Assembly (NCBI RefSeq): GCF_000189635.1
Contig: NW_002476317.1
Span: 620,001-684,000 of the forward strand
Reading direction: 5' to 3'
Length of the DNA: 64,000 nt
Origin: Tetrahymena thermophila SB210
Lineage: Eukaryota > Ciliophora > Oligohymenophorea > Hymenostomatida > Tetrahymenidae
Both the position numbers and the translations under genes were made by a program. This document shows positions 10,131 to 63,514 of this stretch, piece after piece. The notes under the pieces were generated by a model. It saw nothing but the letters and a program-made list of their open reading frames with translations. It did no database searches and was not told the origin of the DNA. Each line of letters begins with the position of its first letter. Position 1 is the stretch's first letter.

Positions 10131-11995
10131 TCAATTACACTTAGGTGAGTTTGTGAGATCCTGTTATGAATCTTCATCGGACTACTACTTTAGAAGTCTA
10201 TGTTTGCATTAAAATGAATGATTCTTCTTATTTATATATTTTATTATAATTTTCAAAAGAAAATAAGATTAATCTTACAATTTTTTTATTTTTTTATTTT
10301 TTAAGTGGTAAAAATTTAGTAAAAGAATAAAAATTTTAATTCTGCTTTAATAATTAAATCACAAAGATATTTATTCAAACTTGTAAGATTATTTAGAAGT
10401 AAATAAATTTATATTTTTTAATATTTTATTTTGAAAATATTTCTCAAATTTGTTTTAAATAAAAAATTTAAATGAATTTTTATTAATATTAAGTCATTTA
10501 TTTACTTTTAATCAACTGGATAAGAAGATTTTTCTGTTGAGTAGGAATGCAAGTCTGAATCGATTTTCAAAAAATCTCCTTTAATTTCAAGTTAAAAGCG
10601 ATGAAGCAGTTTAGGACTTAGATAAATAACTAAGAAAGCACATATGAATCCAATTATATTTAGTTAAAAGAAAAACCTGGAATAGGTAGCATCAGCACTT
10701 ATGAAATGGAAAATAAGCAAAAAAGTTCCAAATATTGATCCTGGGGCTATTGCTATCAAAAACAATCTCTTGATTATCATTATATACGAAATTTGGGATT
10801 AGAATTAGCCATATATATTGCAATTTTCTATGCTTCCTTAAGTGAATATGATTCCAAATAAAAATCCAAAACTAACACCAAAAATTCCTCCATCAATAAA
10901 GCATTTATTGTATAGATATTTATTAGATATACTATCAATATCATTAGTATCACAAGCAGTTTCTATTCTACCATTCCAAATGTCATTAGATGTTTCATAA
11001 GTAGTCTTAACTCCTTCAAAAGCTCCTATAAAAATTCCAATTACCATGATGTATAGAGCCAAGCAAAAGAATGCATATTTTTTAACTTTTTTTTTTGGTA
11101 GGACAGCCAATTTTATAATGAATCTATTAATTTGTTTAAAAACAATTATTCTGAAAATTAAAAAAATAAATAAAGCATATATCCATCCTAAGAGAACTTG
11201 GTTAACTCCGTGCACACCCAAATGAATTCTAGTGAATCCTACCCAAATTATGAAAATACCGTATATTATACAAGCCCACCAATATTTTTTATGGAATTGA
11301 TTACCTAAAGAACTTATTCCATAAATTGCTGCAAAACAATTCAGCATAGCATGGCCACTTGGATTTCCATATTCAGCTGCACACTCTTTTCCTTGAATCT
11401 AATCATATACCATATAGGGTCTAGGATCGTTATAAATAAGCTTAAGTAAATTAAATAAAGCTGCTGTAAAAGCAAATACTATTATATAGTTAAAAGTGTA
11501 AATGCGATTTTAGCCCCAAATTACAACACAAGCTATAACTAAACCAGTAACTACGAATGAAGAATCGCTTATAATCATGGAGAGTGTATATAAAAATTCA
11601 GTATTTATAGACCATTTTTAAATACTTATAATAAAGGATTAAGAAGCATTTTTAGCAAACATTTCTCTAGTAAAAATATCTTAGAATATGTAAATTGCAC
11701 ACAAACCAGTTAAAATAAGTGTGATAATAAATCCTCTTTTAGATTAGCTTGAAAAGCTTTCATCATTATCATTATCTTAATCTAAACAATCATCCTCTTT
11801 TTAAGTTTTGATGGAGTTTACAGTATTTATGCCTTTGTTTTAACCCTGCTACTAGTTTGTCTGATTGGCTTTATTCATACTATGTAAATTAGAAGAATTG
11901 TTGTTATGAATATTTTAATCATCAAAATTATTTTCTTCTTAATCATCTTACTCGCTATTTATTGGCTCCTAAATTGAACTTTTATTTGCATCCAT
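10131..11995 (-). CDS. Membrane PAP2-family phosphatase, 518 aa
   Basis: Exon 1 is 10506-11995. A 308-bp AT-rich intron (GTAAAT...ACATAG, 10198-10505) leads to a 67-bp last exon encoding an acidic tail (LLKQQSDEDSQQDLTNS). The sum is 519 codons. An Asn/Gln/Asp-rich cytosolic N-terminus (about 1-90) precedes several membrane spans. The three PAP2 motifs are present: K-x6-RP at 185-193 (KLIYNDPRP), PSGH at 212-215, and R-x5-H-x3 at 256-266 (RIHLGVHGVNQ). The usual final Asp is Gln266, as in the glucose-6-phosphatase branch; His262 would be the nucleophile. Likely hydrolyses a phospholipid or sugar phosphate at an internal membrane; substrate unknown. If the intron is not removed, the frame runs on to TGA at 10253-10255, giving about 580 residues. 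Confidence 0.87.
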
Positions 11996-14011
11996 TTATT
12001 AAGTCTTATTAAGCTTCACTTAAATATCTATTTTTTAAGATTAGAATTTAAAACATTTTATAATTTAAAATTTTTTTTATTTGTAAAGACTTCTCATTCA
12101 TCTAAATGAATTTTTAAATGAGTGTCATAACTAAAAATAAAATTTTGCGCATATTTTTAGTTAGTAATTTGCAAATCCTTGTTGACAAATCCTAACAAAA
12201 ATACACATATAATGATTAAAATAAATACAATAGAGAAGGAAATAGGTATAAAATGATAAAAACACTCTTACTTTCTATTAAAGCGAAGGGCTTAAAATGA
12301 GTAAAAGCAATTTAAAATGGCAAATTTTTGTAAAAAAATAATATTGAAAATATAAATTTACATTTAGAAGGATTATGCTATAGTTTATCTTTCAATCCAA
12401 TTATCTATTTATCTATATTCTTATTAAGATAATTTATTTTGTAAAATTTTCAATTATAACATTCTTACCTAATTACTACCTTATCAAAATTTTTCTTTTT
12501 AAGCTATTTTACTATTTAATTTTTCACCAAAAGAATTTGTTTTTAGTATTTTGTGATTAAAATACATATCTTAAAGTTATTAAAATGATTATTTTTGTAC
12601 TATAAACTATTTCCTTTATTTTTTTAGCTTTTACTTAAGACTTTCAAAAAAAAGACAACCAAACATATCTTTTTACCTTTATATTATGCCTAAATTAATC
12701 AAACAAGCATTAATCCAGATTACATATATTTCAATCTATTCTGATATAACCTTATATCCTTATTTTTATAGATATAATATGTCTGATTATGTAAGCATTA
12801 TTTAAAATTAAGAAAATACTTTTTATTATTTTTTATTTAAAAAAATTTATTAAGGGTTTTTAAAGTAATATCATTTGGCTATTTATTTTTCTAATTTATT
12901 TATTAATCATTTAGCATATGTTTTTAAGAAAATAGTGTTTATTTTTCATCTGTAGGGAGTAATCCAAATAAACACCAATCTAGTTGGTTCAATTATTATT
13001 AAGCACATTCTAATATTAATCAATTTAAAATAAGCAACAAAATTATTTAGTTAAGTAAAATCAATAAGATATTTTATATATTTAAAATAAATATAATATT
13101 TAGAATAGAAAATATCCATTTTTAAATTTATGAAATTATAATTGACACATTTTAAAAATTGTTTAGCAAAAATCACATTTAATCACAAATTGAAATTTAT
13201 TTTTGTGGCCAGATTTATGAAAAAAAATTTTTATTGTACATATCTTTTTATAAAAAATAATAAAAAGCAATTAAAATATGATTGAAAATTACACATATAA
13301 ACATTCTGGCCTACATTTAAAACAAAAATAAGCATAATCCCTATCAGTTTTTAAATAATAAACTAATTATTCTTTATGAATTAAATTTAAATTAATATTA
13401 TTCCAAATATCTAAAATAATTTAAGATAATAAAAGCAGTTTTTTCGATTAAAGTAAGTGTTTTTTTACTTATTTTTTAATAAATATAAGAATTTTTGCTG
13501 AAAAAACTTAACTATTCAAGTGATAAATTATATTTCAATACAAAATTGAAAATAACATAATCTACATGAGTAAACCTCTCCTTTTTTCTTTTTATTTTAA
13601 AAGGAATCATATTTTTTATTTAATCCATGAATTTTAAATGTTTGTATTTTTAAAAATCTAATATTTTAAGGTAAAGAAGATTGCTAAAAAATTTAACGAT
13701 ATCCAAATTTAGCAAAATTACATTTTTAATATTTTACTTGAATTTATTGATTTAATTAATATTTTTGCTATAAAATATTGGTTGTTTACAAATATATGCA
13801 GGATTAAGAATTGTTACACATATTTTAGAGTCATTTTACTAATTGAAAATTAAAAGAATTAACAATATTGTATTTTTATAATTATTTTTGGTTCAAAGCA
13901 TGAATTTAAAAAAGGACCAACTTTTTTTTTTTAATAATTATTTAATTTATAAAATAAAAAAAACGTAATAAATATCCTAAGTATCAAAATTATTCTTCAA
14001 AATTTAAAAAG
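11996..14011. other. AT-rich intergenic region between divergent genes
   Basis: About 2 kb separating the PAP2 gene (-) from the first large surface protein (+), so both promoters should lie here. A hydrophobic reading frame from an ATG at 12585 and a downstream frame after CTGTAG near 12957 were examined and not accepted. No tRNA or clear ncRNA was seen. Confidence 0.5.
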
Positions 14012-17000
14012 ATGATAAGAGTTTTATCATATCTATTACTTTTTTTGATTTCTCAGTATTTGCAAGTTAAAGGATAGGTTAATAATTGCTTATTTTACGT
14101 ATAATAAACAAAATAATGCCTTCTTTGTGATTCGGGATATTAAATATCTTCATCTTAGCTTAATATATGTGAAAAAATATAAAAATGCCAATTAAACTAG
14201 TTTAATCAAACTAATAATTAGTGTTCTGATTCATGTTTGGGCTAGTAGGAGGTTTAATACGATAGATAATAATAGTAAATTAATTGTGTTGATATTGTTT
14301 ATTGTCCTGTTTTGATCCCTATCTAAGACTAACTTATTGACTAAAAAGTTGGAATATTCTATTATTTAGATAAATAGTTCTAGGTCATCTTTGCTGGTAA
14401 TTTAAATGGAATAAATATAATTGATATTGAAAGCGGAAATAATCAGTTTACTATATCTTACTAAAATATAAATGAATCAACCGGATAACTATTCTATTAC
14501 GAGTATTATGAAAGTAGTATGATTATCTCAACAACTAACTAATAAAGATTGTATCTTGTTTATACTAAGGTTAGATTGACTCCTAGCTCTTAAGTGATAG
14601 ACTTTTATCAAAATAATCAAATATTATTGAATTTTTTTGTTAATTGGGACTCAAGTTAGATTTAAATAATTTGTATTTTCAATGGGGAATTAGTAATATT
14701 CAACTATAATTTCTAATCTTAATAGAAATAAAATCCGATCTAAATTAATCCATCTAATTTAAATATCTTTTCATTTGCAAATGCTATTTTCTATTCCTCT
14801 ACAAGTATCATTATAGAAGCTATCAAAGATAGTTCATCTTAAACAATAAACGCAATTTACTTATAAATACAAGATCAAAATAATTTTAGCCCTTAAGCCT
14901 TTTGTCAATATAGCAAAAATACATTTACACCTGTTTTTAGTCCTAGTACCTAAGAAATTTTATTTTACTCAGTTAGCGGATTAAAAATTTCTAATTTGAA
15001 GAGCTGCTCTGACTTTTTGAGTATTATTAACTTTAAAAATATTAGATAGGTTCTAACTAACGATCAAAAAGGATTTTTAATAATAATAAGCGATTCATCA
15101 ATATATGGTTTTCCTTTTGATTAAAATCTTGGAATACAAGATATTAACAATAAACTAAATCAGTAATTACTTTTAGATAACTCATTATTAGAAATATCTT
15201 TTTGCATAGATTACACTTAAACAAATTCTTAGCTGTCAATTATTTGCTTTAATGAAGCTAAAAGTTAATTAATTTACTTACAAATCAATGAAAATAATTA
15301 ATTTCAAAAATTTGGTACATTTACTTTTACTGATAATATTCTTCTTTTTACTGCATAAAAACAAGCTATTCTGCTCTCCACTTAATAATAATATATCTTT
15401 GCTCAAGGCATCTCCACATTTTTAAATGACTATACTCAAAGCAGTTGTACTTATCAAATCTCAGATTAAGGTTTAAATTCTTAGACTTAATAACTGAGTT
15501 CAAAAGTGATAATTATTGCTAATACTATGCAAAGTTAAAATTTCATTTAGTAAATAAAATTAATAGTTAATTATTAATAAGACATCTCCAATCTTGAAAA
15601 TATAAATCAAATAAAAAATTTGAAAGGTGTTCAATATTTTTAATTAAAATCTAAAGGATCTGATTATATTTCTAACCTACAATCATGGATTTAAAATATG
15701 CAATATCCTTCTTTAGTCTTAAATCTAAATAATATTACATTTAGTCAAAACATTACTATTGGAAATTCAAGTCACTTAAATTCAGTATTTATTTCAAAAC
15801 TTTCTATTTCTTAACAAATTAATAGTATTTCTATTGGCTTCATAAATTTAGACTTGATTGTCTTTGATGAAGTTGTAATTTATGGTAGTTAAATATCTAA
15901 TAGTTTTGTTTTTCAATTAAAAAATTGCTCGAATGTAATAATTAAAAACATGAAAATCTTATCAACTACATTTTAAGATGGCCTAAGTGGGCTATTTTAA
16001 ATAATCTCATCTAATTAGATTTATTTAAGGAATTTGTAAATAGTTAATTGCAATGTGAATTCTTAATCGCTCATATAAATCACTAAACCAAAATATATTT
16101 AAATTTAAAACTCGTACTTTTACAATAATACAAATTAGAACGGTTAGGTAATCTATTATAGTAGCTAACCAAGCTTAATTAATATTTAAGGATCTGATAG
16201 ATTAGAATTAATTAATTTACAGTCTATTCAAAACAATAATGTAACAACAATAAATATGCTTTAATCATACTACAATGATGAAGGAGATAAAGTTATTAAT
16301 GAAAAAAGCATAGCTATCTTTTAAAACATAACAGTAAATAATAATACGGCTTATTAAAATTCATAGATGTCAATTCAATCAATGTACTTTTTTGGAGATT
16401 CATTAAATTTTTAAAATAATACAAGTTTTCACTCTAATGGAACTTTTTATTTAGAGAATGCTGATATTTTTATTTAAAAATCGAACTTTTTGAATAACCA
16501 AGCATTTTCAGGAGGAGCCATATTTTTCAATATAACCAAATTTACTTAGATTGTATAATGCATTTTTAAAAATAACAATGCAACTGCTACTGGTGGAGCA
16601 GTACTTTTACTGAGTTCTTAAGCCATTTTGAACAACACGCTTATCTAATCCAACTATGCTATGATTGGTGGAGGTATAAGAATAGAGCAAGGAAAGTTAT
16701 TTTATGTTTAATATGATACAAAAACAAAAATAATCAACAACAAGGCTTAGCTTTATGGTTAAAACATAGTATCTCGACTTGCAAAAAGAGAGCTTTATGT
16801 TAACAATCAGCTTATGACTGAACTAAACTAAGAAATAGTAGCTTATTTAAATACCTAAATTTCTTAATATGAGGAATACTTTAGGATAATGAAAGCATTT
16901 TTGACATAAGATTTAAGAAGTGGGTCATAAATCTATATTTTAGTAAAGTTGTATGATGTTGACGGATCACTGTTCGTTTATGATCCAAATAAGATAAGCT

Positions 17001-19795
17001 AATATCCAAGCAAAATATAACATGAACTGAGAGCTATTAGTGGTGTATTAACTTCTTATGTAGTATCTATTATAGGTGAGATATAGCTTTCAAAATTTTA
17101 TCTAAGTGAAGGAGGTATACGCTCTGATGCCTTAACAATATTTGGAAGCCCTGGATAGAAGAGTCCAATATTTTTAGTAGAAAATTTTATTGAGTTTACC
17201 TATAACTAAAGCTAAGTAAAAAGAATGAGACATTTACAATCACAAATTCTTCAAACTAATTCTTAATTTTTTTCTGATACTATAAACTGTAATCAAAATT
17301 AAAATTTAGGGTAAGCGAAAGAAAATTAAACAAATTTAATTCATTCTTAAAAATTAAACGATTTTTATCTTAAAATTGCTAATAACGAAGGAAAAATAAC
17401 TTTACTTGAAAATTTTTCATATCTTAACCAGAAAAATTCAAGAAAAAGACTGCTGTCAGATGTTGAAACGATTTCTGCAATTTTAAGTTCTTAAGACGTA
17501 CTAGCGACAGGATTAGTAATAGATTTTAAGCCATGCTAAATAGGAGAAATATCAAAGGTCATAAACAAAGATTTAGGAATCGTTGAGTGCCTTCCCTGTC
17601 CAATTAATTCATATAGCCTATTTAGCAATTAAACTGAGTGTCAAAAATGCCCAGACTCAGCTTAAGTTTGTTAAAACTCAACAATATTGCTGAAAGATGG
17701 ATATTGGAGATAAAATAAATCATCTGATGAAATTTACTCTTGTGATAAAACAATCCCAACATGCTTAGAGTTTACTTAAAAAAACATAGGCAAGCAATGC
17801 AAAGAAGGTAGATTTTTACAAATAAATTATTAATTATTTGTTAATTTATTAATTTCTTTTATTTATTTCAAATAGGATCAATTGGACCTTTGTGTTAAGG
17901 ATGTGACATTCATGGAGATCACTGGGGCAAAAAATATTCTATTTCGAGTCTTAAGGATGGTTGTGCTGAGTGTGATGGGTAGAGTAGCTAAATCTCATTT
18001 CTAATTGTACTATTTTGTTTAACTACTTTTTATTTATTATTTGGAATATATATGGCTATTAAAAATAATATTCATCATTCTACAGCATACTATTTAAGGA
18101 TGATGGGAATAGCTCCCATTTCTAGAAGTTCAACTAAAGACGAAAGCAGCTAGTACATTAAACTTATGACCCATTTTTTACAAATTGTAGCAGTAATTAA
18201 CTCTGTATCTATTCAAATGCCTAATGTTATTAATTTTGTTCCTAGTTTTACTGGTAATCCTGCTTCTTCTTTAATATTGTCAGGTAACTGTCTTGTTTCC
18301 TAAATAGGATTTACAGATATAATGAGAATTAGAGTCATACAATCAGCTTTTCTCCCATTAGTTTATTGCTTAAGTGTGATAGCTATCTACTGCATTCTAT
18401 GCTTCATACGAATAATTAAAAATTTTTAAAGGCAGTTTATATTCACAACTATTATTTTTTTGATAATTTTCTTCTAACCGGATTCTGTGATGTTCTTACT
18501 ATCAGCAGTAGGATGTAAGAAGTTAGGAAATAGCTTATATTTGATTGCAGATGCAAATTACGAGTGTTATACCACTTATGAATATAAAGTATTTTTGTAT
18601 TATGTTACACTACCATCTCTGGCAATTTGGCTTCTAGGACCTTTATCAATTCTTTACTTTTTGAGAAAAAGAAAGAACAAGTTAAACATGATTTCAACAA
18701 AAAAGTTGTTTGGCTATTTATATTTAGAGTATAAACCAAATTGCTATTATTTTGAATTTGTTAGAAGTTGCTTCAAAATGATTATAGTTTCAATTTACAC
18801 TTTGTCTAACTCATCAGGTTCTTTTAATTTGAATTTAATTGCAATAATAATCTCTCTATACATAATAATCTCAAACAAAATTAAACCCTTCCTTAGTTTA
18901 TTTTTATTTCATGTGGATACTATTACTCATTGCGTTCTGCTTTTTGGGGTAATACTTTCAATACTCCATATTAATTTCGAATAGGACAAAGGTAAAATTT
19001 TTATTTTTTATAAAAATATCTTTTAAAAATTCTATTTAAATTTATAATCTAAATAGATTCTTCTTACTACATCGCAATAGTTGTAACAAGTCTGAATATA
19101 TTTTATGTTTCTACCATGGTATTACTTATAGCTTCTTTGAAGGTAAGATAATACACTTTTTTGGTATCTACTATGTAAAGCAAAATTGGCTTCATTTTAC
19201 CCCTCCTTAAGAAAATTAAAATAGCATCCCACGAATAAAAGATGAAAACTTTGCTGAGATGGAAGTTTGTGAAAAGAAACATTCATAATATTATGTTATA
19301 TAAATTTAATTATGAGAATATCAAAAGAATTCCAAGTAAATTTTTCCTTTTTTTGAAATAAATTTTTTTAATGTAATTATATATTAATTAGATTAAAAGA
19401 CCATCTGTTCTACAGAATAGCAGCTAAAAAATTAAAACCACTTAACAACAGGACCAAATAATTAAGATAACCAATAATTAAATAAAAAAGATATATCAAT
19501 TGAAAAAAATAAACTTCTATTAATAGAAACTCCAAGAGTGATTTAGTCTATAGAAAATTGCATTCAAGAGGTAAACATTCAGAGAAACAATAGATGCAGT
19601 ATTCATTCAAAAAATAATGATAAAAACAGTTTTGAGATATTTTCAGTTGCTTGCTCTGAGATAAATATCAATTAATAATCAAACTATGCTGATTTTGACA
19701 ATTATTAATTACCTGTTTTTTAAAAATTTATCTCTTAAAAAAATGTTCTTATGGCCTCTCAAAACTAGATTAATTTGCATGCGCCATAAAAATGA
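14012..19795 (+). CDS. Large beta-helix/multipass surface protein A, 1,864 aa
   Basis: Exons 14012-17807, 17876-18991, 19057-19335 and 19392-19795 (introns 68, 65 and 56 bp) sum to 1,865 codons. A signal peptide (MIRVLSYLLLFLISQYLQ) and a short Cys-rich segment begin a long extracellular region. At about residues 830-890 are Gly-Gly-Ala repeats with preceding F-x-x-N (SGGAIFF, TGGAVLL, IGGGIRIE), the pattern of chlamydial polymorphic membrane protein repeats, which fold as a beta-helix. A Cys-rich stalk follows from about residue 1193 (CLPCPINSY, CQKCPDS, GPLCQGCD), then about 8-9 hydrophobic spans and a Gln/Asn-rich cytosolic tail of about 150 residues. Probably a plasma-membrane adhesin or receptor; the ligand is unknown. 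It is the tandem paralogue of the gene at 20373, with introns at matching positions. Confidence 0.85.
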
Positions 19796-26610: not shown

Positions 26611-27462
26611 TCAGAAAAATATTTTTAGTAATAAGAATATGGCAATATATGAGAAGGATATGATTGAAGAGCTGCAAAATTTTATATACTTAACTGTTCT
26701 ACCATTTAAAGGAACAGTTGTCCTATAGTTTCCGCTTTTGATCTCTCCACTTTAATTAAACCAAAGCTCTTTAAACTTATCTAAGGTTTTCTTTGATATT
26801 TTCACAGGATTTTTAAATACATGCCAATTTACAATCTCATCACAAGTTGGTGTAGTGAGAGAACCCTAGTATATATATGCCTTATTTTATTGGCTAAAAA
26901 CTAGGTTCAACATAGAGGTAAAATCAAGTTCAAACTTTGGTGATAAGTCGTTAACATTTTCACCTGCAAATTCATATTTTTTAAAAAGTTAAGTTTCTTC
27001 AGCTTCATTTTCTGTTTCTTACATGAAAATACCAAAAACTGCCAATTTTTTGGGCGTTTTTACTACGTTTTAGGTTACAATATGTAACTCTAAATCAAAG
27101 TGTTCGCCATCAATAGTATGCTCTGATAAAGAATGAAAGTGAAACTATATAGCTCTATAGGTAGCTTTTACTCCATAAGCATCTGCGAAATCGATTTCAA
27201 AGAAAGGAAGTGAGTTTCCTACCGAAGTTTAGAGAGTATGTCCGTTTTATAGGGTTTATGCGTTAAATTTCCCCATATACTAGAAATCAACATTATAGCA
27301 TTCAGGTGTATCATTTATAAGATAAGTTTCTATATTTATAGGAGATTATCTTTGCCCAGTTGTACAAGTAGCAGGCCAATCTGAACCATGCTAGTCATAA
27401 GTATATGAATAGCATAAATTTAAAATAATTAAATGAACTAAAATCAAATTGAAAATTTTCAT
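26611..27462 (-). CDS. Secreted or GPI-anchored alpha-carbonic anhydrase, 283 aa
   Basis: Single exon, 284 codons. A signal peptide (MKIFNLILVHLIILNLCYS) is followed by the full alpha-CA pattern: GSDWP, QRQSPINI (37-44), NGHTLQ with the proton-shuttle His at 75, QFHFHSLSEH giving zinc ligands His108 and His110, ELHIV giving the third ligand His127, and GSLTTPTC before VNWHVF in the substrate pocket. Cys33 and the Cys of TTPTC match the disulfide of extracellular isoforms. The last about 20 residues are hydrophobic after a Ser-rich site (CSSSIISFSY...), consistent with a GPI signal. It should interconvert CO2 and bicarbonate at the cell surface or in the secretory path. The frame is also open 88 codons upstream to ATGs at 27721-27726, but that would bury the signal peptide, so the ATG at 27462 is preferred. 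Confidence 0.95.
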
Positions 27463-28084
27463 TTCTTTATTTGAGTTTTATTCTTTCTTTTTTTTTTAGT
27501 AGAAATTTAGTATTAAATTAATTAATTATATAGGTAAATTTTTACTGCTTTGTTTTTAAATAAATTTCTGAACCTAATTTTTAAGTTATTGATTTAGTAT
27601 TTACTTCGATTTGTTAGCTTTACTTTTACTTTAACTAATTTTGCAGTAACTCATATTAATAAATTCTCCCAAATTATGCAGAAACTTGAACCTTAACCAT
27701 AAGGTTTTTTTTCCCTTCGTCATCATATAAAGTGCTGAGTTTGAAAAATAATAATATTTTTGTTTATTAAAAAAGCCAATTTGTCAAATATATTAATTTT
27801 ACTTTTATCAGTTTGTTTTTTTAAATTTATTTTTTCATATTCAACTTATTTATTTTTGAAGAAATAATCCATATAAAAATAAAATACATTAATATATTTG
27901 AGAATGAATACTTAGTTAGATATTTACATGACAAAAATAGAATATTAAATAAATTAAGAAACATTAAAATATAGTATTTTTTTAAAATACATTTGATTTT
28001 TTAAGAAATAATTAAATAAATAAATAAGTTAATACATTTTCGTTTTGTAAAATAAAAGTTTATTTTTTTTGCAAATTTGATATT
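27463..28084. other. Intergenic region upstream of the carbonic anhydrase gene
   Basis: About 0.6 kb. Positions 27650-27740 are less AT-rich and contain a small inverted repeat (ACCTTAACCATAAGGT). This may be 5' UTR or promoter of the carbonic anhydrase gene. The remainder is plain AT-rich DNA. Confidence 0.5.
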
Positions 28085-29404: not shown

Positions 29405-30004
29405 ACTTCAAAGATGTTAAAAACTATGTCTTTCTATATATTATTATATGATAAAGTCTTTTTGTTAATCAAATAGAATTTTAAGAAAAGATATATTGTG
29501 TTTATTTATTTATTTAATTTATTTTCAAACAAAATATTTGTTAATTGATTGAATTTATGAAAGCATAAAATCTAAGAAATTACCATTATTTTCTGGAAAA
29601 ACTCAAGCAAGATTATCAAGTAACCTTGAAATATAATAGTGCATACATAAAATTTAAAATAGACAATATATATTTGTCTAATTTTTTTCATTAAAATGTT
29701 TTAAGAAAACTAAAAAAATTAAATTGTATAAATAAATATAGAATAGAGAAATACATAAATAGATTGATTGATAGATAGATAAGGATATATAATTCAAATT
29801 TGTGTTAATAAGTAAAATTTTTGTAATGTATTTTATAATTTATTAGAAAATTCGATAAAAATTGAAGGATTGAACGAAAGATTGATTGATTGATGCTGGC
29901 TGAACAGATTTAAGAAATACTAAAATTTAACTATTCTAGAAAGTTTTAATTTTCTGCATCTAATCTTCCATTTTAAAATTAAATTTAAAACTAAAATAGA
30001 TTTT
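29405..30004. other. AT-rich intergenic region
   Basis: About 0.6 kb between two minus-strand genes, with short GATT/GATA simple repeats near 29764-29785 and 29879-29895. No coding or RNA signal was seen. Confidence 0.55.
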
Positions 30005-32797
30005 TCACATGTCTATACCCCATATCTATTAATTATATTAATAATATTATTTTCAAATTAGCTAATATTATTTTAAACTTTACTTCTATGTTTTTTATTT
30101 TAAACTATTCTTTTCCATCAGAGCTTAGAATTTCATTATCAAATGTATCACATTTGTTAGTCTACCCTCTATATAGGTCACAATTTATAAATAATCCATA
30201 TTTTTCACCACAGCCAACTCCTAATCCATCTGAATTTGAGAAGATAAAATGCTAGTTTTTACCAGTAGGTTAAAAGGCTTTTATTTTTTATTCTTCTCCT
30301 TAAAATTTAAATAAAAAGCATTCTCCATTACCATAAAAAGCATGAGTAATATGAAGAGGGTCAGAAAGGTAAGCTCCAAATTTCTCTCCTTAAAAGGTTT
30401 AAACAACTAAAAATATTGGAGACTCCTCTTCACAATGTCTATACAGGCTATTAATAGAAAATAAGTTCAATATATTATTTTTATTTGTTAATTTTACGTC
30501 TAAAAACTCATGCCATGCTTCATGTTAGAGTATAGTAGTCTCCAATTTGTGTATCTAAACATAGAAGGTACATAATATATAATCTTAAAAATTTTTTTAA
30601 TTTTCAATTTAACTCTTACAAAAAATTATTATACCTGTAAAAACAATTCCTGGGTCAGTACATTGGAGTGCTCGAGCATCTTAGCACCAAATTCAAGAGT
30701 CAACCATTAATCTATAAAAAAATAATTATTTATTTAATGATAAAAAATTTATCCAAGCTAAGTTAACAAAATAAGAAATAGCTTTCAACATCTATTTATT
30801 ATTTTTCTTTTAAATATTTAAGTAAATAAATTAAAGTAAATTTTACTCATTTAATTTTATTCTGCTTCTTAGGTAGTAAGTTTTTTCTTTTGAACAATAT
30901 TTTCATATAAAATATCAAAAAATGGTAAAATAGTTAAGCTTTCTTGTTCAAATTCTTCATCACTTCCCTCTTTCTATTCTTCCTTTTCTTGGCTTTTATC
31001 TTCTTTTTCTTTGCTTTTCTCATGTGTAAGTGATTAAGTCATGTTAGTGTCTTGAGTTTTTGTATCGTTTAATAACATGCTTTCAAAGTCACTATTTGCT
31101 TTTGAAATAATTGGGTTGCTTTAACTTCTATTAAAATGTTTTTCTTCGCTGCTGCTTGTTTGGTCAGAGTTATTATTCGATTTTTGCAAATCAGCTTCAA
31201 GCTTTTATTCCTGTTTTTTCTTCTGTGTAATTCAATAAAAAATAATATAAAAATACTGTTTTTACTAAAAGTAGATTACTTAGTAGTTTTCAATATTTTT
31301 GTTAATGATTTCTACAACTTATTGAACTATTTACTACTTATCTTAATTACTTAAATCATTTCCTAAATGATCCTTTTCAAATACTCTGAAATACACTGTT
31401 GAAATTGATTTTTTCTCTTTTTTGAGCTATTTAAGACGATCTTTATATTTTTTATAGATATCTTTGTTTCCTATATGACTAAGAGATATTTGTAGGACAT
31501 ATTCTTTAGCATTTTCATTAGTTATTTCAGATGCTCTTGGAGGTAACACTAGAGCAGTAGACTCATTTATATCTTTAATATCTATACATGCTTAAAATTT
31601 AATCACTCTTTTCTCTAAATTTATTCAATAGAAATAAAAATTTGTGAGCTTTTGCTTAAAAAATTATCATTAATAAACTAACTTTGTAATTTCTGCATAT
31701 TAGTAGCATTTGAAAGGGACGGATCAAACATAATAACACTATCATTAATTGATAAGCAACCCATAATATTTCCATAGGGAGTACAGTAGTAGAAATGGAC
31801 TTTATTATAAAAAGTGAAATTTAAAGTTAATAATAGACTATGGTTTTTTTACATCTATGAATTTCTTAGTTTGAATCCATTCTGCTTTATAACGAAGCTT
31901 GAGGTTCTTTTTTTAATGACAAAGCTTTTCTTCTATTCATTTAGTATGTATCATCAATAGTACTATCTTCTGTAGATTAGCTTTAGCAGAGTTCTTTAGG
32001 AAATTTAAGTTTCTAGGTTATGTTAAAAAAATTGAATTTAATCATCTAATATAAAGAAATTACCATTCCTGGAAATACAGTATCAGAAACATCATTTATA
32101 AGCTTGATTTTTTATTCACTAAAATAGTAATTTTGAAAAAAAGTTGACATATGCTAAACAAATTAAAATATATTAATTTACGATATATTAAATTTTATAG
32201 ATAGCCCTATAAGTGTATCTTAATTTGTAGTTGTGTAAAAAATATATTTCGATTCATCATCTTCTTATTTTTGATCGCTTGGATTTGCCCCTATACTTTT
32301 AAATTGCTCACTATTTCTCGTTATACTTGAGCTATTAACATTCATACTCTAACTTCTCTTCTTTAATAATTAAGGAGATTGATTTTCTATCTCTTCTTCT
32401 TCGACTTTACCTATAAACTGTTTTACCCTAGGCATATTTTCATTTTCTTAAATTTCGAAATTAATGACTTCATATCTTATATTATCATCTGAAGGATTCC
32501 CTTATGAATTATTGCTCTATTTTCTTGATCCTTTATTACTGGAATTTCCGTTGCTATTGCTACCCTAAAATTAAAAAGTAAAATAATTAATTGTTTATTC
32601 ATAACTTGAATTATTATAGATTTATTTTAAGTTTAAGCTATTTCTTATCTTAAAAATAATTATTCATGACTAGATTGATAAATTTTGAAGCTAAAGATAA
32701 ATAATTGCTATCACAGTAATGAATAATATTGTAGAAAAATATTTTAAAAATAGCTAATTACTCCAAAGCTAAGCAAGTTCTTAAAAGCATTCAGCAT
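30005..32797 (-). CDS. OXR1/NCOA7-type LysM-TLDc protein, 676 aa
   Basis: Ten exons: 32762-32797, 32182-32564, 32064-32118, 31853-32012, 31683-31799, 31280-31614, 30847-31222, 30635-30711, 30084-30554 and 30005-30025. All phases close at 677 codons. A LysM domain (about 118-165) is built across two introns: YTTTNQDTLIGLSIKFNIS, EQKIKLINDVSDTVFPGM, then KLKFP. A GRAM-like segment lies at about 205-260 (CTPYGNIMGCLSINDSVIMFDP). An acidic/Lys-rich linker leads to a TLDc domain (about 490-676): INSLYRHCEE, FGAYLSDPL, FYGNGECFLFKF, GLGVGCGEKYGLFINCDLYRG and, through a 21-bp last exon, NIEIWGIDM. This is the architecture of OXR1/NCOA7. The family protects against oxidative damage and binds the V-ATPase. 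That role here is by family only. Confidence 0.92.
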
Positions 32798-34084: not shown

Positions 34085-37000
34085 ATGATATTAGCAATCC
34101 ATAAAAGCATTTTAATATATCTGGTTTTTCTTTTCAGCCATATTAACTTCTTAAAAGGTAATATTGCATATACGATGATTACTTATGAATAATACATGCA
34201 TAGCATTATATACATATAAAAGTGTTAGAGATAGATGAATAAATATATTTTATTTTAAGTTTTGCGAAAATTGATTAATTTTTTTAATTATTTTTTGTAG
34301 GATAAGCTGTTACATTCACTAGTTAATCTCCAGTTGTTTTAAATACAGGTCCTGCTACTTTATAATGTACTCTAACATCTTAATTTGCCAACAGTTAGTC
34401 TCCATTTAAAGCTATATTCTATTGGGTATATTCATAGTATGCATTCACTATAGCTGAATAAATTTATTTTTCAAACAATCTTGTGGTTATTTCATAAAAA
34501 ACTTAATCTCCTTTGAGTGCCTCTTACTTCTTAGGAAGAATTGAAATAAGTTTTTCAAGCTAAGATATTGACCTCACCAGTGGTGTTTATTCTGTTACAT
34601 TTAGGTTCACTAACTTTAAGAACCCGTTTTCAACTAGAGTATTCGTATGCATACTACTTTATTTTGATAAAAATATTTAGATTTATATTGATTATTATTT
34701 AAATTTAAAGATTAAGCAAATTCAATCATTTTTTTAAATTAAAGGGTGGCTTTTAGCTCTACCTGATAAGTGCAAATGGTTAACAATTATAAAATACAAA
34801 TATAAGCCTATCGGCGTTAACATAAGAAGTAAATTAAATATTTGTTTAATATTGAGATATATCAAAGTTAAATTAATAAAAAATAAATAACTATTTAGAT
34901 AACAAGGAGCACAGCAGTCTAAGTAGTTGGAAATTGTTAAATTAATAGCAATTGTAATTTACTTCTTTAATTTACAACAACAGTTTCAATCGATAAATAA
35001 ATTTGTGCAATTATTGTGAATATTGGGTAAGGAAAAAGCTATTAATTAACTTAAATTAACAACTAAGATGGTGCTTTAGTCTAATTAAGTGATGGTGTTT
35101 ACCTTTTACCTAATATATTTAAAAATTTTCCAACAGATTACTAATCATCTAAGCAGCTTAGTTTTAATTTAGTAATGTCAGGATTCACATATGCTTAGAC
35201 AGTTTAATTTACTGCTACTATTGTAGAAAATGCTTTAAATTATCCAAAAATGGAGACTATTCCTTTTACTTTAGTTGTACAACCTCTGCAAATTCAATCT
35301 AGTGCTTCTATATCTATACCAAATACCAGCTCCAAACTTGTAGGTAAATATAAAGTTATTCAACATTCAATTAAATATAAAAAATTAATTATAGGTGAGA
35401 ACAGCATTTATTTAATAGATTTTACTCTCTCTTTGGGATTTTAGAAGGATTATACCCTTATTGTTGGTTTTGACTCAAGTTTAATTTCCATAAACGATTT
35501 AACAGCAACTAATGTTTATGACATAGGTGGAGTTTCAAATGTTTTAATAGCTACAACTCCAGTTTTAGATAATTCTAATTCTATTATTAAACTTACTTAA
35601 AGCAATTATGATTAAACTGCAAGCTATCCAAAAAAATAACTTAGAATACAGATTAGTGTGAAAAATCCATTATCAACATAAAGTTAGCTTCACTTCAGCA
35701 TTTCTACAGCATTTACATCTAATACTTAATAAGTTTTAGAAAGATTAGATGCCTCTCTTAACATCGTTCTTTAGCCAAATGTATTAAGTTCCTTAACAAT
35801 CACACCATAAAATCTAATAGTAGGATAACTCTCAGTTTATGATATTAAATTTACTGTTAAAACTTAAATTCCTTAAGGAGGTATGATTAAAATTTATTTT
35901 CCTCCTGACACTAGTTTTCCATTTTACAAAGCTGGAGGTACATAAGCAGGATCTCTAAATACTGTCCAGCCTGTTACTGGTAATATTTCTCCTCAAGCAA
36001 CTATCAGTCTAGATTCTTTTCCTTGCAATCCAACTAATGGATGTATTGCTTCTATTAATAATGCGATTTTGACTACTATTACAGGTGGTTCTGTTGTAGA
36101 ATTTACATTAAATTTTATTAGAAACTTATTTTCAACAAAACCTGCATTCATAAATGTAGCAACATTTGACCAAAATAATTTGCAAATAGATTCTAGATAA
36201 ACTTAATTTTAAATGCAAACACCAAATAAATTTAATTTTGTATAAATTAAATAATAAACAAGTATTGTGGGCTAGTCATCTTACTATGACTTCAATATAC
36301 AGTTCAATACAACTCATTATAATGGATATATACTATTTATAACATATCCTTAATAAATTTAGCCTAATATTCAGAATGTAAATGGTTTAACATGTACAGG
36401 TTTAGAGGGATTAATTTAGGATTTGGGTGTTCCTGACCAAAGCTGTGTGGTTACAAATGTTAATGGAGTCAATAAAATCTAGATAATTTTATAGTTTTTA
36501 GATGCAAATAACCCCTCAAGAAGTATTAAAATTAGAGTAAGTTCATTCACTAACTATTTCCTAGCAAACTAAAATTTTTAATTTGGGTTGGAAACAGTTA
36601 TAAAAGAAAGTGCAGGAAACAATTAATTTAATATATTTTATGTCGAAAGCCTATTCAATGATCCAACCTTATAAGTAACTATGACTACAAATGTATTTTA
36701 ATCCTTACTTGTAAGTACATCACCTGGCATTATGAATTAAAATAATGATATTACTGTTAACATAACCCCAAACACAGTTCCATAATCAAATAGTTTGACA
36801 TTTTACATCAAATTTTAACTTTCTCCTTTGTTAAATGTGAACTCAAATTAATGTGCTAATTATTTTATTCCTCCTTCTAACACTGTAGCAAGTTCCTGCT
36901 CTTTTTCTAGCAATACATTCTCAATTGCTTTCTCAGTATTATATTTTTAAATTTGCTTTCATTAATTAAAATTTATTTCCAAACTAAAGATTTTAGGAAC

Positions 37001-40000
37001 TGGCAATATGAAATTTGTACTCAAATAGGTTAACTATCCTTTTAATACAAATACATAAGCATTTATTACAGTTACCACTTACTCAACTGATTTAAACAAT
37101 AATATATATCCGATGGATTATTAAGTAGCTGTTGTACCTTTAAGTTGTCAAGGATTGTGCTAAACATGTATCTCTGCTTAATCCTCTCAGTGTCTTAGCT
37201 GTTATAGTGGTTTTTACCTTGATGGATAGACTTGTGTGACATAATGTCCTCCAAATAAATATCCAGTAAATTTTATTTTTAAATCTTTTTAATAATAGTA
37301 TTACAATTTACTAGATTTAATCAGGAAATATTTGGAAGTGTGAAGCATGTATAAATAATTGCTAAACATGCCAATTAGACGCAACAAATAATTATTAATG
37401 TTTAACTTGTATTGCAAATTATGTATAGACTGCCTATGATACATGTTCCAGTAACTGTCTACCTGGAACTTTTAAAAATTAATAAAATCCTCCTTCTTGC
37501 GATAAGTGTAGTACGAGTTGCTACGAATGTGTGAATGCAAACAATAATTGTACAAGCTGTAACACATAAATTACAAAAAAATATTTGTTTAAGAATTAAT
37601 GCTTAAGTAGTTGTCCCATAGGGTAAATTTTTTATCTAATAATTTTAGATTTATTTTTTTGTGAATAATAAATAAAAGAACCTATCCTAATAACCTCCTA
37701 GGAACCTGCTCTCAGTGTCATTCTAATTGTACTTAGTGTACTGATTATACTGTATGCTAAGCATGTTAATTAGACTTTAAATATTTAGTTAATAATTTTT
37801 GTTATAGTACTTGCCCTAACACAACTGTAAAGAATAGCTAAGATCAGTGTGTGCCATGCACTAATAATTGCTTAACATGCTAACTAACAACTGATAATTG
37901 TACTTCGTGTAATAGTGGATATTATTTAGTAGGTTCGGTTTGTAGTGCTACATGTCCTCTTGGTTAAGTAGGCATATCAGGAATTTGCGTATCTTGCACC
38001 CCTCCCTGTACAGCTTGTAAAAATATTCAAACTTCATGCACTAAATGTGACTAAAGTAAATTTATTTTTATTGCCCTAAAACAAAAACTCACTTCATATT
38101 TTTTTTCCATTTGCTTTTAGATACATATTTAACTGGAGATTCCTGTGTTTAATAAGCTTAATGTCCATCCGGAACTTATGGCGATAACTCTTTGAGGTCG
38201 TGTGTGAGTTGTAAAAATAATTGTCTTACTTGCTCTGATGAAATAACTTGTAAATCCTGCAACTAAAATTCATCATTTAATAAATTTTATAATGGATAAT
38301 GCTTGCAAGCATGTCCTTCATCTACTTATTTAGATAATCCTACAAACATTTGCAAACCATGTGCTCCAGGCTGTTTGTAATGCTCATTGACTTCTTGTTC
38401 CTAGTAATAATAAACAATACTTAAGCTTAACAAAAATTAATAACAATTTATTTATTTATTATAAAGGTGTGATCTCAACTCATAGTATCCAATTCTTATT
38501 AATGGCTAATGTTTACAGAATTGCCCGAGTAACATTCCTATTTATACTAGCTATGGATGCTAACCATGCTCATCTAAATGCCTAACTTGCTAAAATAGTG
38601 TGGACTACTGCTTAAAGTGTTCTTCAGGTATGTCATCTTTGAACGGAGATTGTCTCTCTACATGCCCTTAAGGTTAGTTTATTAAATAATTATTCTCAAT
38701 ATAATTTTAATTTATTTCAGGAATAATTGCATACTATGTTTAAAATTAGGATATATATCTGTATTAGGAGTTTGCTAAGAAGAAGGTACACCTGCCAGTA
38801 GCTTGATAATTTTACCTTTTTTTATTGGATCAGTTGCAATAGCAATGGTGCTTGCTTTTTATTTCTATTGGAATAGAGATATGCTTTACTCTTCTAATTT
38901 TATAGCTGTATTTTCTCTTTTAGAATTAGGAGCGTGGCTCTTTTATATAGGTGTGTTTGCTTAATTTAAAGGAAATCACACAGAAACCTAGTACTCTCTT
39001 TCAAAATCTTTATATGCTTTCTTGTTTGGTATTTTGGCTTATATTTTAATGAATATAGCATTTTTTATCTACTTTAGAAAAATTGTTTTTTAAGATACTC
39101 GCTTTAGGACTTGGCTAACATAGAAATCTAACAATAGTGTTTATAAGGGTTTATCATACTTTGGATTGGTTCTTTCATTCAAAATGAATAGACTTTTATA
39201 TGGAAGATTATGCAGTTTATCTTATTTTTCAGCAGAATTTAATGACAATTAGACCATTTTCAAACCAACTAATATATTTTCAGTAGCATCTTTGATATTA
39301 AACAATCTTCCTATATTTATTAGTGCATGTATGACACTTGACACAATTTAGGCTACTTAAAAAGACTCTTAGCTTTATATAAATGGGATAGAAGTTATTC
39401 TTATGAATATTTTTATGTTTATATTAGTTTTATTAGATTTCCACAAGCCATAAAACTATTTTAATAGGCATAAAGTACAGAAATCTTAGAGTCGAGTTTA
39501 TGTTGATGATAGTGGATATGGAATGATGGGATTAAATGAAAATTAAAGTGTAGATTATAAACATATGATGGATAATTACCATTAGTTTTCAAGAATTAAA
39601 AGTCCAACAAGTATGGACTAGAGTGCATTAAATTCAGCAAAGATTAATTCTGGCTTATAAACACCGTAAGGAGCTGCAAATCCTTTTAATTAAAATAAGA
39701 ATAGATCTAAAATATTTGATGAAAATGGGAATGTAATACATGAAGAAGATAATGATGATGATGAAAATCTTGACTCAGAAGCAAAAAATAAAAATAAAAA
39801 ATAAAATCATGGAATTGATTCTGACTAATAGTCAATAGATATCGAAAACGTTTCTAAAGATTTAGAAAATACTAAGAAAAAGATTCTTGAGTAAGAAGAT
39901 ATTTCTAATTAAAATATCGGAACTAAAAATAGTGAATTAGGAGGTTAAGCTTCATCTCAAGATGGTCAAGATATTGAAGCACAGAAAAATAATAAGTTGC

Positions 40001-46829: not shown

Positions 46830-49348
46830 ATGATGAATAGTAGAAAGCCTCAAAAAGTTTTTAGCTGTTTTTGTGGGAATGGGGTTTCTTACGAAGAAGA
46901 AGCAAACCTTAAAAATCATATATAAAGATGTGAAAGGTATCAAAAAGAGTCACCTTTTTTTAGGTTTTTCTCATCTCTAGATTTGAAATAGCTACCAGAA
47001 GTGCATTTAGTTGCTATTAAGAGTGAATTCTTAACTTACGTTGATGCAGTAGTTTAAGAGTTGAATAATAGTAATAAAATAAATTCTCAATAGTTTGATA
47101 CATTTCTTTTCTTTTCTCTTTTTGAATTCATTTTAATCTTTTATTATAAAATAATTTTTAAATAATATTTTTTAATAAATTTAGAAGGATATATTTCTAA
47201 TTAATAACCTTCGGCTCCAGTTTTGGTGAATTAATTTATTAATAATAGTTAATTCGATCCTAGGATGCAGTCTAGTATGTTTAGCTCAAGAGTAGTAATT
47301 CCATAGAAGCATGTAAATTTCTAATTCTTAACTATTTAGGATACCATTAAAATAGAGAATAAATAATTGATTGATTAACAATTTTAAAATATATTAATGA
47401 TAAAAACTCTAAATAAATTTAAATAAATGAAATAGTTTATTACAAGTGATTAAGTTTAATGTTAAGGATGTAAAAAGTATTTTGACTCTAATTTTGATAG
47501 TGATAAAATCTACTACTTAAATATTTGCTTACATCCCTTTTGCAAAGGCTGTTTGATCAAACAGATAAATACTGATTTTATAAATAAGGGTGGAGTTTAA
47601 TGTCTAACATGCAACAGAGATATAGTAGAATACGATTACAATGTAAGAAAAAAATTTTTAGTTCATACCTTAAACATTAAAATTAATTGTATTATTAAAT
47701 ATATTTAGAATGTTATAGGAAAAGAAAAGTATGAATAGCTCGAACAGAAAATGATATAGAAGATGTATAATTTAGTTTCTTGTATTAAATGCAAAGCTTA
47801 ATTTGAATTTGTTTCAGGTTCAGCTGGATAAAATGTTAGAGATAATAATGGTCAACTATTGTCACCGTAATATATATATATACATAATAAAATTATTTAT
47901 TGAAGTTCTTAAGAATTAGAATCAAATTAAATTTTTTAAAAATTATATAATAGGTAACTACAGTAACACTATGCTGAAAATAGATTTGTATGCTAGAATT
48001 CAGAATGTAAGCAAGAATAATGTAGAAATTGCCAAGCATTCCCTTATCACTTAGGTTATAATTGTGAAAACTTTAGATAATTCAAATAATCAAAGTATTT
48101 AGATTTGAATAATTGAAAATTTCTTAATATCTATTTTAATTAATAATATAGGCGTTGTAGGTATTGCGATGAAACAATCACTCATATTAATACAAACTAG
48201 CCTTTAGCATTGTAGGACATTTGTTCTAAGGAAGAATGCTAATCAAAGAAAAAGTACACTTGCTAAAAAATAAATAATTGTAATCATCCTTGCTACGGTA
48301 TAAAGGATGAATTGAATTGTTTACCATGTCTTCATCCTGATTGTGCTAAAAATAATTCTGACTTAAGAGATAATGACAGTGATTAGTATTGTAATATTTG
48401 TTGGTCAGAAGGATTAGGAGCTGGTCCTTGTGTTTAGCTTGGATGTAAGCATATATTCCATTATGAATGTCTAAAAAAGAGACTTGATGTTAAGTAAGAA
48501 ATTTTTTTTCTATCTCATTTGGCAAGAAATAGAGGCATTTTTATCATTTCGATAATTAAAATAGAAGACAATAATCATAGTTTTTTTAAATTTTATTTCA
48601 TAATATTAAAGGTGGATATCTGCTCGTATTGTATTTAACTTTTGTTTTTGTCCTCTATGTAAACAATGGATGGAATTCTCTCTTGATTGTGACTTGAATA
48701 ACGAAATGCAAAAAATGCTTGCTCTCTATGAAAATATCAAGAAAAAATCTTTAGACAGATTAAAATTTGAAGAGAGATTAAAGGATGAAAAATTAAATGA
48801 CCCTAATTCTCCTTATTACCAATAACCTCAGGAATATGCGATGGCAATTTATGCATATTTTATGTGCTTTAAATGTAAAAAACCTTATTTTGGTGGTCTA
48901 AAAGATTGCTAAAGAGGTATGGACGAAGATAAAAGAGAATTCGATCCAAAGGAATTGATATGTGCAAACTGTTGTGAAATTCCTGTTGAAAATTGCCCCA
49001 AACATGGTAAAGATTATATCGAATTTAAGTGTAAATTTTGCTGTTCAGTTGCTTAGTGGTTCTGTTGGTAATAATTTAATTTTTTATTGAAATTCCTATT
49101 TTTAGAAATAAATAAATTAATTAAATAATTGATAAATAAAAAAAAGGGGAACTACACATTTCTGCGAGCCTTGCCATAAAAGGTAATGTAATGGTGATTA
49201 TGTATCTAAGTATCCAAAAGAAAAACTTCCTAAATGCGCAGGAGGTTCAAAATGTCCTGTTGGTGGAAGTCATAAACCAAATGGAGAAGAATCTGCTCTT
49301 GGTTGCTCGTTATGTAGAAATGCAAAAGACAATCAAAAAGAATTTTGA
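46830..49348 (+). CDS. RING-Cys-relay (MYCBP2-type) E3 ligase with RBR-like N-terminus, 665 aa
   Basis: Exons 46830-47070, 47185-47642, 47709-47866, 47954-48094, 48152-48493, 48612-49067 and 49147-49348 sum to 666 codons. Zinc-binding modules in order: a C-x-C...H...C finger (about 13-34), a RING0-like set (173-223: CQGCKKYF, CLHPFCKGC, CLTC), an IBR-like set (about 255-325: CIKCKAQFEF, NRFVCQNSEC, CRNCQAFPYHLGYNC), CRYC (335-338) with Cys/His pairs after it, then a RING at 413-463 (CNICWSEGLGAGPCVQLGC-KHIFHYEC, FCFCPLC). After a helix comes a tandem-cysteine domain (CFKCKKPYFGG, DPKELICANC, CPKHGKDYIEFKCKFCC, WGTTHFCEPCH, ALGCSLCRNA) closely matching the C-terminus of MYCBP2/Highwire. Cys546 and Cys598 align with the MYCBP2 relay cysteines 4520 and 4572. 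Expected to move ubiquitin by Cys relay to a hydroxyl or amine; the substrate is unknown. Confidence 0.93.
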
Positions 49349-61577: not shown

Positions 61578-61632
61578 GGCAGTTATGTGTACTTGCACTG
61601 ATATTGTGATTTGTAAGATTACGGAAACTGCC
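61578..61632 (+). ncRNA. 55-nt cloverleaf-like element, copy 1
   Basis: Begins GGCAGTT and ends AACTGCC, a perfect 7-bp terminal stem followed by A. Inside are GTGT/GCAC (4 bp, loop ACTT) and GTGAT/ATTAC (5 bp with one G-T, 7-nt loop TTGTAAG). The layout is a tRNA-like cloverleaf lacking one arm; the 7-nt loop reads like an anticodon loop with GTA. A nearly identical copy lies 303 bp downstream. It could be a small structured RNA, a truncated tRNA-like gene or a mobile remnant. No promoter box was recognised. Both strands are possible; plus is chosen by the tRNA analogy. Confidence 0.4.
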
Positions 61633-61880
61633 AAAAACAAATTAGATTATATAAAGAAATGTCTTATTCTAGTTAATCTGTTTTGGACTCTTTGTATACT
61701 CATATTTTTAGACTCTAAATATGTTTAATTATAAAATCTCATATTATTTTCTTAAATTAAAGCAACATAATTTTACAATGAAGACTTTACTTCCACATGT
61801 AGTTATTGCTTTCTAAATAGGCTAGAAATGAAAATAAATTTGTAAGTAAGATTATTTTGATTATTGCAACAACAAAAAAA

Positions 61881-61935
61881 GGCAGTTTTGTGTACTTGCA
61901 CTGATATTGTGATTTGTAAGATTACGGAAATTGCC
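61881..61935 (+). ncRNA. 55-nt cloverleaf-like element, copy 2
   Basis: Identical to copy 1 at 53 of 55 positions. One change (A to T) lies in the unpaired spacer after the first stem strand. The other (C to T) turns a G-C pair of the terminal stem into G-T, so the 7-bp stem GGCAGTT/AATTGCC is kept. Flanking sequence beyond an A-rich run on the 5' side does not match copy 1, so only the element itself is duplicated or conserved. Confidence 0.4.
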
Positions 61936-63514
61936 AATAAAAAATATGAATAGAAACTCTCCTTTAAAATACTTCATTATTTTAAAATCTGTCCATCCTA
62001 TTCACATTTTTTTAAATAAAAAAAAGCTATTTTTTTATTTAAATTAATTATAAATTCTAATAAAAAGGTTAAAAGGTAGACCTAAATTTATTTATCTTCT
62101 AATAGAAGAGATAAATTGCTTATTCAGATATTTACAGTCTATAATAATATTTAAAAAAATTCTGAGAAATCTCATAAAAATAATAACTAGAATTTATAAT
62201 AAAACAAATAAAATTAAAGTTTATAATTTAATATTTAAGAATATTTTAAAACTATTTTATTTGTATTTCTTTTAAATATATTACTTTTCTGTCTGTAATA
62301 ATTGATTGAAACTTACTTGTTTATCTAAAAATATAAAGTTAAATTTATAAAAAATGCTTTCTTATAATTATGAAATATATATAAATTATTCTACCTATAC
62401 AATAAAAACCTTTCTAAAATGAGCATGAATAGTAAGAAAAATTTTACCCAAGTTTACAGGTGCCCATTTTATAGAGGGATTTTATAATAAAAAAGTTAAA
62501 TTTATGATAAAAAATATATTCCATTTTTAATGAATACTCAGTTTTTAAGTGTTCCTAGTTAGACAGATTCTATTCTATTAATTTTGTATTATTATGAATT
62601 AAAAATTATTTACCTACAAATACTTTAGAAATAAAAATGTAATTTTAAGTAAAAAAAATAAAAATGAAATTACTTACTATATAAATTATTTTATTAAAAA
62701 TTACTAATGTTTTGAAATCTTCTTTAGCTGTTTTTATTTTTTAATTAGAATTAATATATATTTAGCTGTATAAATTGAAACCTGGAAGATTTACAACAAT
62801 CTGTCAAATATAAATATAAAATTTAAAAAAAATCATAATAATAAAATAATTTAATTTTAGTTTAGTATAAATATTGAGGTATTTAAGAATAAATAATACT
62901 TTGAGCATTGTATTTTTTATTTTTAATATTTTGAAAAAAAACACTATTTTTAATACTATCAACTATTTAATTATCATTAGTATTTTATGTAAGCTTTGAA
63001 TTTTAAATTAGGTAATATTTTGTTTATTAATTGCTACAAATATCAATTAGATATTTTGTAATTATTTATTAGAAAACTTTCTAACCTCTTTGAATTACTG
63101 ATATTTTATATTTTTTTAGAGTTTATCAGATTTGATAAAGCTTTAAAGATAATTTAATGCTTTAAAAAATAATGAATTTCGAATTATTTAATAATATTAT
63201 GGAAAGAATATACAGTTATTTTCATTTAAAAAATATGATTTATGTATAAAAATCACAAAAAAGTGCTTAGAATTTTTTAAGATTACAAAATTTAATTTTT
63301 TTTTTTCTATTTTAATTAAAAAATTTACATTATTTGAATTGTCTAATATAATAAATTCAATTTTAAAAAACACTTAAAATAGCATTTGTGTTTAATATAT
63401 CTATGTAAGTTAAAAATGTATAAATACATTCTGAATTTGATTAAAAATATAATTAATAAATACTTAAAATAATAACAATAAAACATTAAAAATTATTTAT
63501 AAACAAATATAAAA
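61936..63514. other. AT-rich intergenic region upstream of the tetraspanin-like gene
   Basis: About 1.6 kb of very AT-rich DNA. No further copy of the 55-nt element, no ORF and no tRNA was seen. The promoter of the downstream gene should be near the right end. Confidence 0.55.

Follow-up and report, generated by a model that had tools for sequence, protein, structure and literature searches.

A compact Tetrahymena protein with a predicted RING-Cys-relay ubiquitin ligase module behind an RBR-type RING1-IBR front

Is the RING-Cys-relay (RCR) type of ubiquitin ligase confined to animals, or can it occur in a small protein joined to parts of another ligase class? This question is raised by a gene at positions 46830-49348 of the window, the whole 64-kb stretch of Tetrahymena DNA analysed here, which had been predicted to encode a small RCR ligase preceded by zinc modules of the RBR kind. 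MYCBP2 has been described as the first example of the class (PMC9527308), and one paper asks whether it is the lone E3 with non-lysine specificity (PMC6769291); in the passages reviewed, the only RCR ligases named were RPM-1 of worms and its orthologue MYCBP2, which is loosely termed 'RBR-like' in one table (PMC13008643). Among the open-access papers listed, judged by their titles and the beginnings of their abstracts, none concerned an RCR ligase outside animals or an RBR-RCR fusion, and open-access texts in which MYCBP2 and Tetrahymena occur together included, by title, nothing on ligases. The gene structure, homology, residue conservation and paralog described below, all read from the sequence, uphold the original prediction in its main point, and enzymes of this rare type are probably not restricted to animals.

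The gene, whose features all lie on the + strand, runs from an ATG at 46830 to a TGA at 49348. Read in the ciliate nuclear code (table 6), it was modelled as eight exons encoding 624 aa with no stop or frame break; TAA and TAG account for 32 of the 46 Gln codons, and internal TGA is absent. The seven introns, whose splice sites are all predictions from sequence, are GT-AG introns with a GC content of 0.09-0.20, compared to 0.27-0.37 for the eight exons. Introns 1 (47071-47184, GC 0.12), 2 (47313-47435, GC 0.15) and 3 (47643-47708, GC 0.14) preserve the reading frame and contain no stop in the ciliate code, and can therefore be mistaken for coding sequence. Keeping 47313-47435 while removing the other six introns gave exactly 665 aa, the length originally predicted, and removing all seven gave 624 aa. 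This segment, with its GT...AG borders, preserved frame and GC of 0.146 against the exon range above, is very probably a seventh intron, indicating that the longer protein retained it; C505 and C557 in the 624-aa model are Cys546 and Cys598 of the original prediction. Introns 1 and 2 fall within a non-conserved linker where the paralog is uninformative, and the paralog has no insertion at the site of intron 3, supporting the removal of 47643-47708. The possibility of an intron read-through artefact was ruled out by this last observation together with the GC content of introns versus exons. The remaining introns are intron 4 (47867-47953), in which the reading frame hits a TGA and which splits the IBR; intron 5 (48095-48151), an AT-rich segment of 57 nt that separates the IBR from the zinc block preceding the RING; intron 6 (48494-48611), which splits the RCR RING; and intron 7 (49068-49146), which lies inside a Trp codon directly 3' of the catalytic Cys codon. 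The positions of introns 5 and 7 are common to the paralog.

Searching the genome with the RCR part revealed one other gene, at C212:663299-665651, encoding 694 aa; four candidates were scored and gave five matches, of which three belonged to this paralog. The modules of the paralog follow the same order as those of the window gene, and 51 of 54 Cys are kept. Identity between the two proteins was 17% (11/65) in the linker, 31% (16/52) in the N-terminal finger, 47% (36/77) in the pre-RING block, 50% (83/166) in RING1-IBR, 56% (108/193) in the tandem-cysteine (TC) domain and 70% (37/53) in the RING. Differences between the TC coding sequences were distributed over the three codon positions as 63/45/106, a third-position excess in keeping with purifying selection on a coding sequence. 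Two introns occupy the same place and phase in both genes, one after '..SK' (before RCRYC) and the other right after the second catalytic Cys. The same module order and the two shared intron positions indicate that the fusion is genuine and that it preceded the duplication.

Comparison of the window's ORFs with the 27 kb around the paralog listed 10 matches; nine fell within the RCR gene, including some on its opposite strand, and the tenth was weak, with 31% identity over 101 aa at E=5e-7. Elsewhere in the window, TtnuHACA8 (Rfam), an H/ACA snoRNA of Tetrahymena, occurs twice on the + strand, at 61578-61707 and 61881-62009; the two copies lie ~170 bases apart and of which one is strong (154.7 bits) and the other diverged (70.5 bits). 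The - strand carries a TLDc domain (29691-30692, E=1.1e-33), which occurs in proteins that bind the V-ATPase or confer oxidation resistance; a eukaryotic-type carbonic anhydrase (26614-27783, E=8e-46); a PAP2-superfamily protein (10256-12097); and a protein kinase (5826-7574). Two long ORFs on the + strand, 13904-18100 and 34767-37340, had weak ephrin-receptor-like and growth-factor-receptor-like matches below cut-off and perhaps encode ciliate surface proteins.

The C-terminal third of the protein had been proposed to match the catalytic end of MYCBP2, and this was borne out by a phmmer search against PDB chains, in which the MYCBP2 chains 5o6c_A (E=5.7e-69; the crystallised human RCR) and 6t7f_A (E=7.6e-69) matched over residues 366-617; the other eight of the ten matches listed were ordinary RINGs (E 0.06-0.28). 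The module consists of a RING (residues 372-422, 48390-48660), split by intron 6 and retaining the Ile of its CNIC motif, and the TC domain (residues 425-617, 48667-49324), split by intron 7. In a three-way alignment of 252 residues, the window protein was 47% identical to human MYCBP2 and 58% identical to the paralog. Both ciliate proteins were identical to human MYCBP2 at 28 of its 33 Cys/His columns, with the same five columns differing in each, and the CxIC Ile of the RING was kept in all three. As anticipated, RCC1 and PHR domains are lacking: Pfam returned weak RING matches and no MYCBP2 domain beyond them, and a search of NCBIfam returned no match up to E=1. Full-length MYCBP2 was not seen in the genome, where three PHR-domain matches (C327:7723-8145 and C382:60212-60773) and the RCR matches (C214 and C212) lie on separate contigs. 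Searches with two to six short peptide patterns each, which diverged relatives could escape, found no relatives of the RCR part in viral contigs or in bacterial and archaeal genomes.

One reading of this module is that RCR proteins of the MYCBP2 type are widespread and that the gene is merely their usual version in ciliates, which databases may already list as a generic RING protein. Its N-terminus would then be one lineage-specific attachment of several and would not inform the origin of either ligase class. We consider this reading quite plausible, if just short of probable, since the strong conservation of the RCR module suggests age and this genome, the one eukaryotic genome searched, holds two copies, whereas no paper on such a family was found in open-access text. 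It fits the mechanism proposed below and differs on novelty: the RCR family may already be familiar to specialists or sit unnamed in databases.

The residues that carry catalysis in MYCBP2 are conserved. C505 (48907-48909) aligns with the relay cysteine; C557 (49063-49065) with the second catalytic cysteine, human C4572; E520 (48952-48954) with the triad Glu, E4534; and H568 (49175-49177) with the catalytic His, H4583. These MYCBP2 residue numbers reportedly go back to Pao in 2018 and Mabbitt in 2020. The spacing between C505 and C557 is 52 residues, as in human MYCBP2, so that both the pairing and the spacing of the relay cysteines first proposed were confirmed by the alignment, and the His after CEPC is kept, as H568. 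The relay cysteine is numbered C4520 in MYCBP2 (PMC12664034), in which a Cys-His-Glu triad has been described (PMC9527308); the triad partners are H568 and E520 in the window protein and H and D in the paralog. From their alignment with the solved structure of MYCBP2, C505 and C557 are predicted not to be zinc ligands. AlphaFold, run on exon 7 alone as a single sequence, gave a pLDDT of 47.8 and a pTM of 0.40, too low for the model to be used. In addition to its Asp for the triad Glu, the paralog has Asp for the RING1 His, suggesting that these residues drift, and it keeps the first pocket Phe; the active-site positions that diverged thus differ between the two copies.

Conservation of the catalytic residues did not extend to the selectivity pocket. 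The three Phe of the MYCBP2 threonine pocket correspond to W558, F563 and Q571 in the window protein, a change at two of the three, and to F, F and V in the paralog. Both changes in the window protein, Trp directly after the second catalytic Cys and the replacement of a later Phe, had been foreseen. The pocket is a selectivity feature and is not known as a requirement for the relay; in MYCBP2, threonine preference has been tied to the three-Phe cluster (PMC6769291). Because two of the three are changed, acceptor selectivity would be altered relative to MYCBP2. It is possible, if rather doubtful, that the change goes further and that a rebuilt Phe pocket serves a relay ligase with an acceptor other than Thr/Ser, such as lysine, a sugar or a lipid hydroxyl. 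The F-to-W and F-to-Q replacements in the window gene and the F-to-V replacement beside a kept F in the paralog are consistent with such an acceptor, as is the reported tie between the cluster and threonine. However, the triad His and Glu and one Phe are kept, and acceptor preference is unreadable from sequence.

In front of the RCR module, the original prediction had placed RING0-like and IBR-like zinc modules. The RING0-like reading was dropped, as the N-terminus forms just one zinc finger of the CxC...HxxxC type (CxC-x14-H-x3-C by sequence, residues 13-34, 46866-46931), which has no Pfam match and whose ligands the paralog retains at a spacing of x15, and the module preceding the IBR is RING1. 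In this RBR-type RING1 (residues 132-182, 47460-47612), Gly replaces the Ile usually found in CxIC, and the IBR that follows (residues 217-282, 47781-48065, split by intron 4) reads CxxC-x37-C-x4-C-x4-C-x2-C-x5-H-x4-C. Pfam found no IBR at E<=1 in the whole protein and gave non-significant matches to fragments (IBR_1, E=0.22, for the window gene; IBR, E=0.73, for the paralog). The best Pfam match to the paralog IBR fragment was AZUL at E=0.0035, below cut-off (18 vs 23.8 bits), and neither gene was among the 73 IBR matches in the genome at E<=1. PDB sequence searches with RING1-IBR likewise yielded no RBR chain among the matches listed, the top ones being insignificant matches to the BRCA1 RING (E 0.026-0.19) and one to a phosphomannomutase (E=0.69). 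Recognition of the IBR required the comparison of one profile with another.

Since Pfam called no IBR, an RBR profile was built from 14 RBR segments, obtained from 30 loci supplied from the same genome, and compared by hhalign to a query profile of two sequences, the window gene and its paralog. The alignment had a probability of 97.6 (E=3.6e-12, score 80.3, 143 columns) and spanned RING1, the connecting helix and the IBR up to a C-x2-C where RING2 would begin. Composition shared within one genome may raise this score, and the shuffles used for comparison preserve composition: in 100 shuffles with Cys/His columns fixed, the best score was 35.6, compared to 80.3 for the real alignment, and none reached it. 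RING1 alone gave a probability of 92.2 and a score of 40.1, which none of 100 shuffles reached (maximum 35.3, probability 85.9), a small margin, as would be expected of a motif that consists mostly of ligands. The helix, IBR and C-x2-C alone gave a probability of 91.2 and a score of 43.3, again reached by none of 100 shuffles (maximum 27.6). The RBR-like IBR module expected in the front was thus recovered by profile-profile comparison.

The Cys-rich block between the IBR and the RCR RING (residues 294-356, 48156-48344) was unrecognisable as an RBR RING2. With the RBR profile thin in this region, as only a minority of its 14 rows extend through RING2, the post-IBR stretch matched at a probability of 0.14 and 97 of 100 shuffles scored equal or higher, and the block was rejected as a recognisable RING2. 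The pattern C-x2-C..C-x-H-x2-C occurred in the window protein at RING1 only, with no RING2/Rcat, so that neither profile nor pattern found the catalytic RING2 that had been reported missing. The block may resemble the stretch just before the MYCBP2 RING.

The RING1 sequence also bears on where an E2 would dock. In RBRs, the E2 is contacted by the RING1 residue that immediately precedes the second Cys. This residue is Gly in both ciliate copies (CQGC in the window gene, CNGC in the paralog); among the nine of 14 sampled RBR segments in which the start of RING1 was readable, it was Ile in seven, Leu in one and Val in one. From the replacement of this Ile by Gly in RING1 and its retention in the RCR RING, we infer that the E2 probably docks on the RCR RING and that the front has a different binding partner. 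Having neither a recognisable RING2 nor the E2-contact Ile, the front is most likely non-catalytic. That it might still dock an E2 or accept ubiquitin, giving two cooperating RINGs and a hybrid RBR-RCR catalysis, would agree with the retention of RING1 and IBR Cys/His ligands in the window gene, but is very unlikely given Gly for the CxIC Ile in both copies, Asp for the RING1 His in the paralog and a RING2 that was not found. The notion that two adjacent genes, one RBR-like and one RCR, were wrongly merged in a gene model predicted from sequence can be set aside as extremely improbable, because exon 48152-48493 starts just past the IBR and reaches into the RCR RING, with the 57-nt AT-rich intron as the sole gap, and because module order and the site of this intron are shared with the paralog. 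The two parts were accordingly found to form one gene, as the original prediction had assumed, on the evidence of this exon, the module order of the paralog and the two shared introns.

We propose, with good but not full confidence, that the protein is an RCR E3 that would act by relay catalysis and whose RBR-derived front is most likely no longer catalytic. The RCR RING would recruit E2~ubiquitin, and C505, on the mediator loop, would receive ubiquitin from the E2 and pass it to C557 within the same molecule. H568 and E520 would then help its transfer from C557 to an acceptor, most likely a hydroxyl, giving a putative ester linkage. The RING1-helix-IBR front may bind substrate or ubiquitin, replacing the large MYCBP2 scaffold.

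Comparison to known systems shows that the protein shares features with two ligase classes. Like the RCR of MYCBP2/PHR1/Highwire/RPM-1 (5o6c, 6t7f), it has a RING and a TC domain alignable over 252 residues, catalytic residues included. Unlike MYCBP2, it has 624 aa, an RBR RING1-IBR ahead of the RCR and two of three pocket Phe changed, and its Pfam matches are weak RING matches alone, with no RCC1, PHR or other MYCBP2 domain. The front shares with RBR E3s, as represented by the 14 same-genome segments, RING1, connecting helix and IBR in order and then the C-x2-C at the start of RING2; it differs in the RING2/Rcat that was not found and the Gly at the E2-contact Ile of RING1, and catalysis is expected at the RCR end. 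A third comparison is with HOIL-1, an RBR that carries a RING2 of its own. In the window protein, where no RING2 was found, a relay module follows the front instead. HOIL-1, which forms ester-linked ubiquitin, is otherwise similar in being a cysteine-based ligase with RBR parts and hydroxyl targets (PMC6613137, PMC11962058).

The fusion also suggests a scenario, unlikely on present evidence, in which RCR ligases arose when a RING-TC unit replaced the RING2 of an RBR ligase, with ciliates keeping a short ancestral form and animals moving the relay onto the PHR scaffold. If a RING-TC unit was indeed docked onto an RBR ligase, two cysteine-based classes of zinc ligase would share a history. As a small enzyme with natural pocket changes, the protein makes the link between pocket and acceptor testable. 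The 624-aa ciliate RCR protein and its paralog suggest that the relay is old and independent of the giant PHR scaffold or of neurons, and the ciliate gene raises the testable question of whether RCR ligases originated beside the RBR class.
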